Below are positions 35,645-48,050 of a DNA stretch of 64,000 nucleotides, piece by piece (within the stretch, counting starts at the first letter, position 1; each line of letters starts with the position of its first letter). Source of the DNA: Robiginitomaculum sp. (lineage in GTDB: Bacteria > Pseudomonadota > Alphaproteobacteria > Caulobacterales > Maricaulaceae); assembly GCA_002733805.1 (NCBI GenBank), contig NVXG01000031.1, forward strand, positions 1 through 64,000, read 5' to 3'. Position numbers and translations under genes: made by a program. A model generated the notes under the pieces. That model was not told the origin of the DNA and ran no database searches. It worked only from the letters and a program-made list of their open reading frames with translations.

Positions 35645-35881
35645 ATGAGCGATAGCACCCAAAAATCGAAATCTAATAATACAATGGCAATTGCGCTGTC
35701 GGTTGGTGTCGCATTGGGCGTGTCACTGGGTGTGGCCTTTGGTCTGGCTATCGACAATCTGGGCGTGGGCCTGGGGGCCGGTATTGCCATTGGCTGCGGC
35801 TTGGCCCCGGTTTTTGGACTAGCGCTTTCCAACAAGAACAAATCAAATTCTACAAATAAAACCTCCGAAGAGGACAAATAA
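35645..35881 (+). CDS. Small glycine-rich membrane protein in the beta-oxidation operon
   Basis: 78 residues. A polar N-terminus (MSDSTQKSKSNNT) precedes a stretch of about 45 hydrophobic residues with regularly spaced glycines (ALSVGVALGVSLGVAFGLAI and LGVGLGAGIAIGCGLAPVFG), enough for two packed spans of glycine-zipper type, then a Lys/Asn/Ser-rich tail. It lies 4 bp after the thiolase gene and 1 bp before the FadB-like gene, so it is inside the operon. I do not recognise a characterised family; it might anchor or organise the pathway at the membrane (speculative). Confidence 0.65.
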   Translation: MSDSTQKSKSNNTMAIALSVGVALGVSLGVAFGLAIDNLGVGLGAGIAIGCGLAPVFGLALSNKNKSNSTNKTSEEDK

Positions 35882-35882
35882 G

Positions 35883-38072
35883 ATGAAACATTTCAAAATT
35901 GAAACCGACAAAGACGGTATTGCGCTGGTCACGTTTGACAGCCCCGATGTGACCATGAACCTGTTATCGCGTGACGCGTTGACCGAAATCGGTGAATGGA
36001 CCGATATGATCGTCAATGATGATGCCATCAAAGGCGTGGTGGTTACTGGCAAGCCAAATGCGTTTTGTGCCGGGGCTGATCTTTCCGGTTTGGGCGAGAT
36101 ATTTGGTGAGGCACAAAAACTGCCTGAAGATGAACGCAAAGCCTTGTTGTTTGAAGAATTTTCAGGTCTGCATAAAGTTTTCCGTAAGCTGGAAACTTGT
36201 GGCAAGCCAGTGGCGGCGGCCATTAATGGCTTGGCGCTGGGTGGCGGATTTGAGATCACTTTGGCCTGTCATTATCGGATTGCCAGCAATGACAATCCAA
36301 AGATCAAACTTGGCCTGCCTGAAGCCATGGTTGGCGTTTTGCCCGGCGGTGGCGGCACCCAGCGTATGCCGCGCCTGATCGGGGCGATGAACGCTTTTGA
36401 TCTGATGCTGCAAGGCAAAATGATCAAGGTTGATAAGGCCTTGGCATTGGGCTTGCTGCACGATGCTTGTCCGGCTGATGAGTTGATCGGCAAGGCCAAA
36501 GCTTGGGTCAAGGCCAACCCGGATGCCAAACAACCATGGGATCAGGAAAACTTCAAAATCCCCGGTGGTGGTCCATACCATCCAGCCGGGTATCAGACCT
36601 TTGCGGCGGCCTCTCCGATGCTGCGTAAAAATACCATGGGGAACTATCCCTCACAGCGCTACATTCTGGCTTGCGTCTATGAAGGATTGCAGGTTGATTT
36701 TGATGCGGGTATTCGCATTGAAACCCGCTATTTCACCCGGTTGATGATGCGCCCTGAAAGCCGCAACATGATCCGCTCGATCTTTTTGTCAAAACAAGAC
36801 CTCGACAAGGGCGGCGCTCGACCAGCCGGTCAGGAAAAAGGCAAAATTACCAAAATCGCCGTCATTGGCGCTGGCTTTATGGGGGCGGGCATTGCCTATG
36901 TATCGGCCATGGCCGGGGTAAAGGTCGCGCTGATTGATGTAGATCAGGCTGGCGCGGACAAGGGTAAGGCCTTTGCCGAAAAAGAGCTGAGCAAACGAGT
37001 ATCGCGCAAGCGGATGGATCAGGAAAAGGCCGACCGGATTTTGGAGCGGATCACGGCCACCACTGATTACGGCGTGATGAAAGACGTTGATCTAGTTGTT
37101 GAAGCGGTTTTCGAAAGCCGTGAGTTAAAAGCCAAGATCACCAAAATGGCCGAGGAAATCTTACCAGAAAATGCAATTTTTGGCTCCAACACCTCAACCC
37201 TGCCAATAACGGGTCTGGCCGAGGCTAGCAAAAGACCTGAAAACTATATTGGTATTCACTTCTTCTCTCCAGTGCACAAAATGATGCTGGTCGAGTTGAT
37301 TGTTGGAGAAAAAACTTCGGACTATGCGATTAGCCGGGCACTTGATTTTGTGACCCGTATTCGTAAAACGCCAATTGTGGTGTCTGACACAAGGGGCTTT
37401 TACGCCAATCGCTGCGTGATGCGCTATATTGAACAAGGCATGGGGCTTCTGTCCGAAGGTGTAAAGCCAGCTTTGATCGAAAATGCCTCGCGCATGGCTG
37501 GCATGCCAGTCGGGCCGCTTTCCCTGCAAGACGAGGTGGCGATTGATCTGGGCTATAAAATCCTAAAACAAACCGAAACCGATCTGGGACCGGAAGCGGT
37601 GAAGGGGCCAACTGCGCCGATTATCCGTTCGATGATTGAAAACCATGACCGTAAAGGTCGTAAAAACAGCAAGGGTTTTTACGACTATAACGGTAAGGAA
37701 AAACGCTTGTGGCCTGGCTTGTCAGAATTTGCACCCAAATCCGGATTGCAAGACCCGCAACCTTCCCCCTCCTATATCAAGGACCGTATTTTGATTGCCA
37801 TCGCGCTGGAAGCAGCACGTTGCATGGAAGAGGGCATTGTGACCGATCCACGTGAGGCCGATGTGGGTTCGATTTTGGGTTGGGGTTTTGCACCTTATAC
37901 CGGCGGGGTTCTGTCCTACATTGATACCATGGGTGCCGCCGCCTTTGTGGCGCGGGCCGATGAATTGTCCAAGGACATGGACAGCTCTTATGACGTGCCG
38001 GACTTGTTGCGCGAAATGGCCAAAAACGGTGAAACGTTTTACGGTCGTTTTGGCAAAAGCAAAGCGGCGTAA
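35883..38072 (+). CDS. fadB: Trifunctional-type enoyl-CoA hydratase / 3-hydroxyacyl-CoA dehydrogenase
   Basis: 729 residues. The crotonase half has AFCAGADLSGLGE near 60 (oxyanion hole), AAINGLALGGGFEITLACHY near 112 and GLPEAMVGVLPGGGGTQRMP near 142, giving the hydratase/isomerase activity. The dehydrogenase half begins with IAVIGAGFMGAGIAYVSAMA (NAD binding, near 325-345) and contains GSNTSTLPIT and IHFFSPVHKMMLVELI, with the His and Glu of the catalytic pair near 455-465, plus a second C-terminal dehydrogenase fold (RILIAIALEAARCMEEGI). It catalyses the two middle steps of beta-oxidation. GAGGA lies within the end of the small membrane-protein gene. FadJ-like naming is equally possible. 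Confidence 0.9.
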   Translation: MKHFKIETDKDGIALVTFDSPDVTMNLLSRDALTEIGEWTDMIVNDDAIKGVVVTGKPNAFCAGADLSGLGEIFGEAQKLPEDERKALLFEEFSGLHKVFRKLETCGKPVAAAINGLALGGGFEITLACHYRIASNDNPKIKLGLPEAMVGVLPGGGGTQRMPRLIGAMNAFDLMLQGKMIKVDKALALGLLHDACPADELIGKAKAWVKANPDAKQPWDQENFKIPGGGPYHPAGYQTFAAASPMLRKNTMGNYPSQRYILACVYEGLQVDFDAGIRIETRYFTRLMMRPESRNMIRSIFLSKQDLDKGGARPAGQEKGKITKIAVIGAGFMGAGIAYVSAMAGVKVALIDVDQAGADKGKAFAEKELSKRVSRKRMDQEKADRILERITATTDYGVMKDVDLVVEAVFESRELKAKITKMAEEILPENAIFGSNTSTLPITGLAEASKRPENYIGIHFFSPVHKMMLVELIVGEKTSDYAISRALDFVTRIRKTPIVVSDTRGFYANRCVMRYIEQGMGLLSEGVKPALIENASRMAGMPVGPLSLQDEVAIDLGYKILKQTETDLGPEAVKGPTAPIIRSMIENHDRKGRKNSKGFYDYNGKEKRLWPGLSEFAPKSGLQDPQPSPSYIKDRILIAIALEAARCMEEGIVTDPREADVGSILGWGFAPYTGGVLSYIDTMGAAAFVARADELSKDMDSSYDVPDLLREMAKNGETFYGRFGKSKAA

Positions 38073-44788: not shown

Positions 44789-44921
44789 TAGGCAGTTTGC
44801 ATGTTTGGGGTTCAAAAAAATTCAGGGGTTCGAATTATCATCCCGGCTTGATCAACTCGATCAGGACCGGACCAATCCCGTACCTCGATACCTTTTTTCC
44901 TGCAAGATTAGACTGGTTCCC

Positions 44922-47900
44922 ATGAACAACAAAACCAACGCTCCAACCGGCGGGCGCGATTATCGCGAAACGCTCGTTTTGCCCAAAACAGATTTTCCAA
45001 TGCGGGCCGGACTGCCCAAACGCGAACCCGAATGGATCGCCCGTTGGCAGAAACTAGATATCTATGGGGAAATCCGCAAAAATTCTAAAGGCAGAGAGAA
45101 ATTTTCCTATCATGATGGCCCTCCTTACGCGAACGGCCACGTGCATTTGGGTACTGCGTTGAACAAGATTTTGAAGGACTTTGTGGTCCGCTCGCACCAA
45201 ATGATGGGGTATGATGCCTCATTCGTTCCGGGGTGGGATTGCCACGGTCTGCCGATTGAATGGAAAGTCGAAGAGGGCTATCGCAACAAGGGCAAAGCTA
45301 AAGACGATGTTCCCATTGATGAATTTCGGGCTGAATGTCGTTCTTACGCCGGGCACTGGTTGGATATTCAACGAGAAGAATTCAAGCGGTTGGGCGTGTT
45401 TGCCGATTGGGATAACCCGTACACCACCATGGCCTATTCTTCCGAGGCGCGTATTGCGTCCGAGTTTTTGAAATTTGCTGAAGCTGGCAAGCTGTATCGC
45501 GGTTCAAAACCGGTGATGTGGTCGCCGGTCGAGCAAACCGCCTTGGCCGAGGCCGAAGTGGAATATGCTGATCATGTCAGCACGACAATTTGGGTCAAAT
45601 TTAAAGTTATAGAACACGATATTACGAATCTTGTGAGAATCGCTGCTGGTTTAGCTCAAAATAATAATACGGATTTTGATGAAAGGGCTTTCAGAGAGAC
45701 ACACGATTTGAAGGGCGCGAATGTAGTTATTTGGACAACTACTCCTTGGACTATTCCTGCAAACCGGGCGATTGCTTACAACCCAAATATTGCTGAGCAG
45801 GTTATTGGCGAACCCGCTAGTTTTGTTGGCGGAGAACCGATTCCGGAGAGTCATTCCGAGTTCGGGTATGGTGTTTATGAAGTTGAAAAACTTGAACAAT
45901 CCGAATTTGAACCTTGGGCCAAGGTTGGCGAGAGATATATAGTCGCTAATTCGCTTGCAGAATCTGTAAAACAGGCCGGTAAAATCTCAAGATGGAAATA
46001 TGTATGCAATGCGAAAAAATTGGATACCGTGGTTTGTGCGCATCCATTTGCCGAACTTGACCCGTATTATAAATTTGAAACGACGTATGAAGGTATAACA
46101 TATTCGGGTGTGCATCTTTTCCCCGCTGCGCACGTCACAGATGAGTCTGGTACTGGTTTTGTTCATACAGCTCCAGGGCATGGTGCAGATGATTACGACG
46201 TTTGGTTAGATCAGCCTGTATTTCAGAGGCAGATTCCTAAAATTCCAGAAACCGTCGGGCCAGACGGGGTTTATTACGACCATGTGCCGCTGTTTGCTGG
46301 GCTAAATGTGATCCGCACCACGGGTAAGAAAACCGGGCAGGACGGCAAAGCCAATGCGGAGGTTCTGGCCAAATTGACCGAAACCGGGGCGCTGTTGGCG
46401 CGCGGTCGCATCACTCATTCCTATCCGCATTCATGGCGCTCCAAAGCACCGGTGATCTATCGCAATACGCCGCAATGGTTCATCCCGATGGAAGATGACA
46501 AGGGGGCGGAAGGCTTGCGGGCCAAAGCGCTGGCCGCCTTAGGCGACACTGAATTTTTCCCACCACGCGGGGCAAACCGCATCGGTGCTATGGTGGCGGA
46601 TCGACCAGATTGGCTGATTTCGCGCCAACGCGCTTGGGGTGTGCCGTTGACCTTGTTCGTGCGCGAAGGTACGGGCGAGTATTTGCAAAATGCGCAAGTA
46701 AATGCCCGAATTATTGCGGCGATTGAAGCGGAAGGTGCCGATGCGTGGGTGGCTGAAAACGCGAAGGAACGGTTTTTGAAGGGGCTGGTCGAAGACTGGG
46801 AAGGTTACGAGAAAATCACCGATATTTTGGACGTGTGGTTTGATAGTGGTTGCTCTCATGCCTTCACCTTGGAGGATCGTGAAGATCAACAATGGCCGGC
46901 CGATGTCTATCTGGAAGGCTCAGACCAGCACCGGGGTTGGTTCCAAAGTTCCTTGCTGGAAAGCTGTGGAACGCGCGGTCGTGCGCCCTATAACAAAGTG
47001 GTCACCCATGGTTTTATCATGGCAGAAGACGGCCGCAAAATGTCCAAATCGCTGGGCAATACCATGGCGCCAGATGATGTGGCGCGCCAATATGGTATCG
47101 AGATTTTGCGGTTGTGGACCGCATCATCTGACTATCAGGAAGATTTGCGGATTGGCGACGAAATCCTGAAAACCTCGGCAGATAGTTACCGCAAGATCAG
47201 AAATACCCTGCGTTACCTTTTAGGTGCGCTGACCGGATATGAAGCCAGCGAAGAGCTGGACGTGGCCAGCTTACCAAGTCTGGAGCGCTTGATCCTGCAC
47301 CGCTTGGTGGAGCTGGATGAGCAAGTAAAAACCGGATACCGCAATTTTGATTATAAAGGCGTATTCGGAGCCATTTTCACGTTTTGCAATGCCGATCTTT
47401 CGCAACTGTTTTTCGACATCCGAAAAGACTCGCTGTATTGTGATCCACTGGATAAACCGCGTCGAAAAGCTGCGCTTTATGTGATGGATAAGGTCTTTCA
47501 TTCGGTCGTGCGTTGGCTGGCGCCGATCCTGCCATTTACTACCGAAGAAACTTGGCTCAACCGGTTTCCATCAGAAACAGATTCAGTGCATTTGCATGAT
47601 TTTGCCAAGGTGGATGCGAATTGGAATGATCTGGAATTGGCCGGACATTGGGCGGCCATTCGAAAAGTACGTAAAGTAGTGCTGGGCGCTCTGGAAGTAG
47701 AGCGACGTGAAAAACGAATGGGATCATCCCTGCAAGGTGCGCCAATTGTATCACTGGAAAATTCTGATGATCTGGCCTCGATTGCAAAAATGGCGGAAGG
47801 CGATGTGGAACAGTTCTTTGGTGATGTTTGCATCACCAGTGGTATGACTTTGCGGTCCGGCCCCGGAAATGCAGATGAGTTTTCGCTGGATGATGTGCCG

Positions 47901-48050
47901 GGCGTATCTGTTGCTTCGGTCACGGCAGAGGGCGTTAAATGCGCCCGCTCATGGAAGTATTTTGATCCCAAAACTGCTGATCCAGCCTTCCCGGATATTA
48001 CGCCTCGTGATGCCCTCGCCGTCGCGCAATGGGATGCAGCCAATGGATAA
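44922..48050 (+). CDS. ileS: Isoleucyl-tRNA synthetase with compositionally distinct editing domain
   Basis: 1042 residues, somewhat long. The class I signatures are PYANGHVHLGTALNKILKDF near 67 (HIGH equivalent HVHLG) and DGRKMSKSLGNTMAPDD near 703 (KMSKS). The CP1 editing domain keeps VVIWTTTPWTIPANRAIAYN near 270 and GTGFVHTAPGHGADDYDVW near 408, so proofreading of valine should work. Between about 45601 and 46260, covering this domain, base composition and codon choice differ sharply from the rest of the gene; see the separate entry. ATG 44922 is chosen because the frame upstream lies within the ribF end. lspA overlaps the 3' end. Confidence 0.93.
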   Translation: MNNKTNAPTGGRDYRETLVLPKTDFPMRAGLPKREPEWIARWQKLDIYGEIRKNSKGREKFSYHDGPPYANGHVHLGTALNKILKDFVVRSHQMMGYDASFVPGWDCHGLPIEWKVEEGYRNKGKAKDDVPIDEFRAECRSYAGHWLDIQREEFKRLGVFADWDNPYTTMAYSSEARIASEFLKFAEAGKLYRGSKPVMWSPVEQTALAEAEVEYADHVSTTIWVKFKVIEHDITNLVRIAAGLAQNNNTDFDERAFRETHDLKGANVVIWTTTPWTIPANRAIAYNPNIAEQVIGEPASFVGGEPIPESHSEFGYGVYEVEKLEQSEFEPWAKVGERYIVANSLAESVKQAGKISRWKYVCNAKKLDTVVCAHPFAELDPYYKFETTYEGITYSGVHLFPAAHVTDESGTGFVHTAPGHGADDYDVWLDQPVFQRQIPKIPETVGPDGVYYDHVPLFAGLNVIRTTGKKTGQDGKANAEVLAKLTETGALLARGRITHSYPHSWRSKAPVIYRNTPQWFIPMEDDKGAEGLRAKALAALGDTEFFPPRGANRIGAMVADRPDWLISRQRAWGVPLTLFVREGTGEYLQNAQVNARIIAAIEAEGADAWVAENAKERFLKGLVEDWEGYEKITDILDVWFDSGCSHAFTLEDREDQQWPADVYLEGSDQHRGWFQSSLLESCGTRGRAPYNKVVTHGFIMAEDGRKMSKSLGNTMAPDDVARQYGIEILRLWTASSDYQEDLRIGDEILKTSADSYRKIRNTLRYLLGALTGYEASEELDVASLPSLERLILHRLVELDEQVKTGYRNFDYKGVFGAIFTFCNADLSQLFFDIRKDSLYCDPLDKPRRKAALYVMDKVFHSVVRWLAPILPFTTEETWLNRFPSETDSVHLHDFAKVDANWNDLELAGHWAAIRKVRKVVLGALEVERREKRMGSSLQGAPIVSLENSDDLASIAKMAEGDVEQFFGDVCITSGMTLRSGPGNADEFSLDDVPGVSVASVTAEGVKCARSWKYFDPKTADPAFPDITPRDALAVAQWDAANG
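45601..46260 (+). other. AT-rich mosaic segment covering the IleRS editing domain
   Basis: By hand count this 660-bp segment has about 43-44% G+C (287 of 660), against about 56% in 300 bp of immediately flanking gene sequence (45481-45600 and 46261-46440). It uses AGA/AGG for arginine (AGA at least four times, AGG twice), ATA for isoleucine and AT-ending codons far more than the flanks. The reading frame is continuous and editing motifs are intact. It also holds extra residues before VVIWTTTPWT (Asn-rich AGLAQNNNTDFDERAF). The boundaries coincide with the CP1 insertion, so replacement by recombination from an AT-rich donor is plausible. Confidence 0.6.

Follow-up and report, generated by a model that had tools for sequence, protein, structure and literature searches.

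Lateral transfer below the level of the gene, with breakpoints inside genes, is established (Chan et al., 2009; PMC2639706), and the part of that study drawn on here reports that recombination interrupts genes and that the regions encoding domains do not act as modules in transfer. For isoleucyl-tRNA synthetase (IleRS), the part drawn on of Cvetesic et al. (2016; PMC4861432) describes whole genes of the eukaryote-like, mupirocin-tolerant type (ileS2) that move horizontally, some alphaproteobacteria included, and an alignment of 334 IleRS whose conserved editing-domain regions carry no relevant changes. An exchange of the IleRS editing core alone was not found in the literature searched, whose coverage was incomplete and partial for individual sources.

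The ileS gene described here lies in a window of 64,000 nucleotides (the whole stretch of DNA that was analysed) from a Robiginitomaculum sp. assembly. As in the cases of Chan et al. (2009), recombination after transfer between lineages appears to have replaced part of a gene; the difference from the cases in the part of that study drawn on is that the replaced part would be the single catalytic core of an essential tRNA synthetase, with saturated silent sites. One edge of the segment is at the entry of a domain and the other is inside it, which agrees with the conclusion on domains in the consulted part of that study. With ileS2 transfer (Cvetesic et al., 2016) the locus shares the horizontal movement of IleRS sequence, but there, in the part of the paper drawn on, the whole gene moves, whereas here the type 1 body is kept and the editing core alone appears changed. 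Type 1 bacterial IleRS (1qu2, 8c9e) belong to the same sequence family and have the same fold and editing motifs; the present enzyme differs from them in its apparent mosaic origin and in a core stretch of 220 amino acids with extra inserts, the corresponding stretch of its nearest relative (G012) having 149.

The ileS gene and its product

The features discussed below are listed by position in the window, with strand, description and basis.

44922-48050, + strand: ileS, type 1 bacterial isoleucyl-tRNA synthetase, 1042 amino acids (P0001; TIGR00392)
45588-45597, + strand: left breakpoint, codons ~223-226, after ..VSTT and at IWVK, in the strand entering CP1 (fit, base-level alignment, model)
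45596-46241, + strand: putatively foreign segment, core of the CP1 editing domain, residues ~223-442, with low GC3 (two-breakpoint fit, silent sites, codon use, lengths)
45609-45722, + strand: insert 1, about residues 230-267, mostly missing from the relatives G012, G016 and G015 (alignment)
45726-45764, + strand: editing motif VIWTTTPWTIPAN, residues 269-281, intact (translation, 40-row alignment)
45795-45866, + strand: insert 2, residues 292-315, EQVIGEPASFVGGEPIPESHSEFG (alignment)
46053-46109, + strand: loop ELDPYYKFETTYEGITYSG (alignment)
46149-46196, + strand: editing motif GTGFVHTAPGHGADDY, residues 410-425, intact (translation, 40-row alignment)
46239-46253, + strand: right breakpoint, codons ~440-444, at IPETVGPDG, inside CP1 (fit, base-level alignment)

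In a profile search the enzyme scored 766.1 bits against TIGR00392 (cut-off 621.4), a model that type 2 enzymes pass too, and the 3.7-Mb assembly holds a single ileS over this family cut-off. It is nearer to type 1 than to type 2 structures, both by sequence (653 bits to the type 1 enzyme 8c9e vs. 239 bits to the type 2 enzyme 8c8u) and by structural Z score (33.9 vs. 27.6). A domain swap from ValRS or LeuRS as the source of the segment was dropped on the basis of the IleRS profile scores and the structure comparison. So was selection by mupirocin, a link raised in the first-pass annotation: the MupA and MupB models gave 252.7 and 244.7 bits, far under the cut-off of 1900, which the type 2-like enzymes of neighbouring genera also miss at 645-663 bits.

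Those type 2-like enzymes are an observation in their own right. The best IleRS matches in G031, G023 and G021 (L064, L065 and L066; genera g15, g7 and g5 of the same family) are only 27-29% identical to the present enzyme, and their MupA/MupB scores mark them as type 2 or eukaryote-like. L064 scores 802 bits to cytoplasmic IleRS vs. 373 to the type 1 8c9e. This looks like whole-gene replacement of ileS in neighbouring genera.

The reading frame is open through the segment and both editing motifs are present, as had been claimed from the letters alone. Residues W271-T277 (WTTTPWT), P279, N281, H415, H420 and D424 show no variation across an alignment of 40 IleRS, and we take WTTTPWT, N281, H415, H420 and D424 to be catalytic editing residues. 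The AlphaFold2 model has a mean pLDDT of 83.2, with low confidence in the inserts (<50 at residues 233-250 and 255-260 of insert 1 and at 295-306 of insert 2), and aligns with S. aureus IleRS (1qu2_A) over 898 residues (Z 35.7, rmsd 4.7). Insert 2 is missing in 12 relatives of one alignment and in 4 of another, and at the ELDPYYKFETTYEGITYSG loop the 12 relatives in the genus whose CP1 is readable carry a short GxGYDF form that the present enzyme does not have. Because the editing motifs and the modelled fold are intact, the segment is probably a working editing core, with editing activity predicted.

Divergence and composition along the gene

A search with the full-length protein gave a match in each of 61 genomes, in some only to related synthetases or to a type 2 enzyme. 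Among the 56 loci with an IleRS open reading frame, 49 relatives were aligned; those omitted were partial, duplicate or broken (L028, L029, L059, L060) or of type 2 (L064, L065, L066), and the fragments L061, L062 and L073 of G004 and G019 are also not in the alignment. One of the omitted loci, L059 (G013:C3:125695-128743), is the ileS of a genus member split over frames with an in-frame TAG, through either sequencing error or decay.

The nearest relative is G012, a sister species in the same genus. Amino acid identity to it is 97% over residues 1-225, 94% over both 446-560 and 561-800 and 87% over 801-1042, and falls to 54% over residues 226-445, where 220 residues face 149. Taking residues 1-222 plus 447-900 as the body, the pair is 95% identical in amino acids and 89% in nucleotides, and in the CP1 core 54% and 56%. 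Across all 49 relatives, close and distant ones alike, identity to the segment is 37-58%. The same segment was looked for in the genus, where 14 of 18 genomes have a CP1 match, and the 13 others besides the present genome are 50-57% identical in its main stretch; no relative with the same segment was found among them, and close relatives with it at normal composition had been named by the first-pass annotation as one observation that would count against its proposal.

The choice between replacement and accelerated change turns on the silent sites. At four-fold degenerate sites the present gene and that of G012 agree at 201 of 302 positions in the body and at 4 of 40 in the core (Fisher 4e-12), and a pairwise alignment gave 5 matches in 45 core sites, where 9.5 are expected by chance from base composition. 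This drop is the most extreme among 50 close pairs (body identity at least 85% in amino acids and at least 75% in nucleotides), the next having p 4e-5. The CP1 identity of the pair lies 5.8 sd under the body-to-CP1 trend, for which all pairs among the remaining 79 members of an 80-sequence set were used (slope 0.80, residual sd 5.1 points), and its body-minus-CP1 gap is 41.0 points, the maximum in other pairs being 22.6. The 24-kb G012 contig gave 41 matched rows of open reading frames, with silent identities of 0.52-0.73 in the first 21 (whole ileS, 0.59) and of 0.59-1.00 in the remaining rows, which are partly spurious overlapping frames; the lowest 40-site silent window has 10 of 40 matches outside the ileS frame and 4 of 40 inside it.

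Two further loci show uneven silent divergence. The lowest window outside ileS sits in a mosaic-looking gene at 35823-38069 (+ strand, 749 codons), which we take from its sequence to be a FadJ-like fatty-acid oxidation gene. Its four-fold sites match those of G012 at 66/164 for residues 41-480 and at 83/126 beyond 481. GC does not change along it, and this mosaic is probably due to recombination within the genus. In family f3, the CP1 of G523 (L129) has 39/76 silent matches with that of G614 (L135), against 243/321 (p 4e-5), and 30/62 with that of G552 (L122), against 236/316 (p 6e-5). These drops are smaller than that between the present gene and G012, and a second CP1 exchange, within a genus, is a possible explanation.

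The edges of the segment are sharp. A two-breakpoint model fitted to 2,898 compared bases of the present gene and that of G012 gained 100 log-likelihood units (maximum of 11.9 in 100 permutations), with identities of 0.567 within the segment and 0.877 outside it, and the breakpoint positions listed above are its 2-log-unit ranges. It moves the position first proposed, 45601-46260, to about 45596-46241. In the base-level alignment near-identity continues up to ..GTCAGCACGACAAT and returns at ATTCC. The suggestion that the edges coincide with those of the domain holds on the left, where the breakpoint lies within strand 213-232 of the AlphaFold2 model, at the entry to CP1, but not on the right, where it falls within CP1, 3' of the editing motif GHGADDY and ahead of model strand 491-504. 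Since we take CP1 to extend to about that strand, the replaced part would be the catalytic core and not the whole of CP1.

Composition changes in the same place. Windowed composition and codon counts, along the lines proposed as a check, confirmed a dip in GC and GC3 and a shift in Arg codons. Within 45600-46299, 300-base windows have a GC of 0.42-0.46, compared with 0.49-0.52 to the left (starts 44800-45300) and 0.52-0.60 to the right (starts 46200-47000), so that the low G+C reported inside stands and the "56% next to it" applies to the right side only. Codons 223-442 have a GC of 0.427 and a GC3 of 0.332, with GC3 elsewhere in ileS being 0.57 (residues 1-222) and 0.54 (443-1042). The genome reference, built from 123 stop-to-stop open reading frames of this genome (about 200 kb sampled) with ileS left out, has a GC3 of 0.550 (sd 0.058; 546 overlapping 220-codon windows); windows as low as the segment number 3 of 546 for GC3 and 7 of 546 for GC. 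The reported excess of AGA/AGG and ATA was borne out: AGA and AGG make up 6 of 7 Arg codons inside the segment and 2 of 56 in the remaining ileS (Fisher 2.8e-6), and Ile is encoded by ATA at 3 of 15 positions within it and at none of 34 beyond it (p 0.025). Taken together, AGA, AGG, ATA, TTA and CTA number 11 in the segment, a count that 48 of the 546 windows reach and that is hence only moderately high.

Finally, the present enzyme keeps 8 of 9 genus-specific residues in the body and 1 of 4 in the CP1 core, while in a leave-one-out comparison of 12 relatives ten keep 4 of 4 core residues and two keep 4 of 5. The lost residues and the missing GxGYDF loop are small marks against vertical descent; S327 and the VGE and KIS stretches of the segment appear genus-like.

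Trees and the origin of the segment

Separate phylogenies of body and CP1, which had been proposed as a check, gave a clear answer for the body but not for CP1. In the body tree the present gene and that of G012 are sisters with bootstrap/SH-aLRT support of 100/100 (89% DNA identity, 2007 columns). The CP1 trees do not pair the two, yet enforcing the pair is not rejected (p-AU 0.264 for protein, 0.107 for DNA), and they place the present sequence on a very long branch of 1.0 (protein) to 1.3 (DNA) changes per column. In a quick CP1 tree, in which long rows may be wrongly shut out, the 12 other genus members group without it (SH-aLRT 99); a 16-row CP1 DNA tree separates it and the 12 genus members from three rows of other genera (98/97); and FastTree puts it next to f1_G033 with a support of 0.53. 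Constraining it to the genus in the CP1 protein tree raised the score above that of the free tree by 3.7 log units (p-AU 0.622). With so long a branch, the CP1 trees say little either way on the donor.

That the CP1 trees are compatible with a placement in the genus is what would be seen if the native CP1 had diverged in place, through relaxed selection, insertions or local hypermutation, and the several inserts of low model confidence and the few genus-like residues fit such a history as well. Against it, silent sites are saturated inside the segment and 67% identical outside, the edges are defined to within about 15 bases with GC3 and Arg codon use shifting along with them, the motifs and fold are retained, and CP1 identity follows body identity in the pairs that exclude the present sequence. 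The present data speak strongly against divergence in place, which we regard as barely credible. Because the silent sites are saturated, the segment would have been replaced and is not a product of relaxed codon use or of accelerated protein change, and the alternative first offered, relaxed codon use in an insertion-rich segment, is contradicted by the same divergence.

With a body sister to that of G012, and a core agreeing with it at 4 of 40 silent sites between sharp edges, the comparison supports the original proposal that a native gene carries a foreign insert. As assembled, ileS is demonstrably a mosaic: both junctions are sharp, in frame and homologous, codon use in the segment is foreign, and silent divergence is saturated there and only there. 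Considering the silent sites, the edges, the composition and the loss of features specific to the genus, we consider it very probable that about 645 bases of ileS, encoding the catalytic core of CP1, were replaced by the homologous stretch from the ileS of another bacterium.

No close relative of the CP1 protein was found in genomes of the genus (18), class (385), order (299) and family (137), nor in those of the phylum (398) and of families f5 (62) and f3 (249); these sets overlap, those for class, order, phylum and f3 being samples of larger groups, and E-value limits for the matches listed were 1e-25 (family), 1e-20 (phylum) and 1e-32 (f5 and f3). The closest CP1 core, from G552 (family f3, probably Caulobacteraceae, same order), is 59% identical at 124 bits, against a self score of 510-520 bits, followed in the same order by G1108 (59%, 117 bits) and G033 (45%, 111 bits). 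Above-threshold matches in the phylum sample came from 21 genomes, namely the present one, 15 more from its order and 5 from its class. A motif-pattern scan of genome contigs gave 10 pattern matches and no relative of the segment, and in a second scan (594 stretches) the top segment identity among the best 80 of 587 relatives was 48%. A first scan of viral contigs gave nothing and a second gave 12 loci at 28-42%, apart from one 23-residue match at 70%; the 26 plasmid and 7 phage records were all <60% identical to the segment and held no donor. The simplest guess for the donor is an unsampled, AT-richer, fast-evolving relative.

The mosaic structure is well supported by sequence, and its biological reality depends on correct assembly at two places. 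An assembler could have joined the ileS genes of two organisms, in which case the mosaic is absent from any cell; this is a draft of 115 contigs, 94.67% complete with 4.6% estimated contamination, and no donor was found in the searched genomes. For such a chimera the assembler would, however, have had to make two independent joins within one contig of 105,461 bases (C15), separated by 645 bases and each of them keeping the frame and linking homologous positions. Long exact words shared at both joins are unlikely given that the segment is 56% identical to the G012 version, and the assembly has neither a second copy of this CP1 nor another ileS above the cut-off. We consider an assembly chimera very unlikely.

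Gene conversion could also have brought in the segment from an old ileS paralog within this lineage, the paralog being lost afterwards. Some bacteria carry a second IleRS gene, according to the part drawn on of Cvetesic et al. (2016), and type 2 enzymes occur in the neighbouring genera. The genus member G007 has two ileS genes (G007:C50 and G007:C58; L029 and L067), which may be contamination. This history has to be set against the single ileS above the cut-off in the present assembly, the lack of a similar copy in any of the 13 further genomes of the genus that have a CP1 match, and a foreign codon use that favours another genome as the source, and we give it very little weight.

Mechanism and significance

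Replacement from another bacterium, the reading we prefer, would have begun with the uptake of foreign DNA by the cell, followed by homologous, gene-conversion-like recombination at conserved anchors flanking the segment. The donor may have been an AT-richer, unsampled alphaproteobacterium, probably related to the Caulobacterales. The swap was presumably tolerated because the core folds as a unit that a few strands tether to the catalytic body, and the swapped core would still edit mischarged Val-tRNAIle and similar products.

A broader reading, which we put forward as speculation and think rather unlikely, is that the editing core is an exchangeable cassette across bacterial families, such that a native essential synthetase could accept a divergent core with extra inserts in one step, possibly altering proofreading (e.g., of norvaline or other non-cognate amino acids) with aminoacylation untouched.

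An exchange of the editing core alone, at about 55% identity, would reveal how far the proofreading module is independent of the rest of an essential enzyme. Nature would also have supplied a ready-made chimera with which to ask whether the specificity of editing can change by itself, and such a mosaic would be a warning for IleRS phylogenies built from whole sequences.
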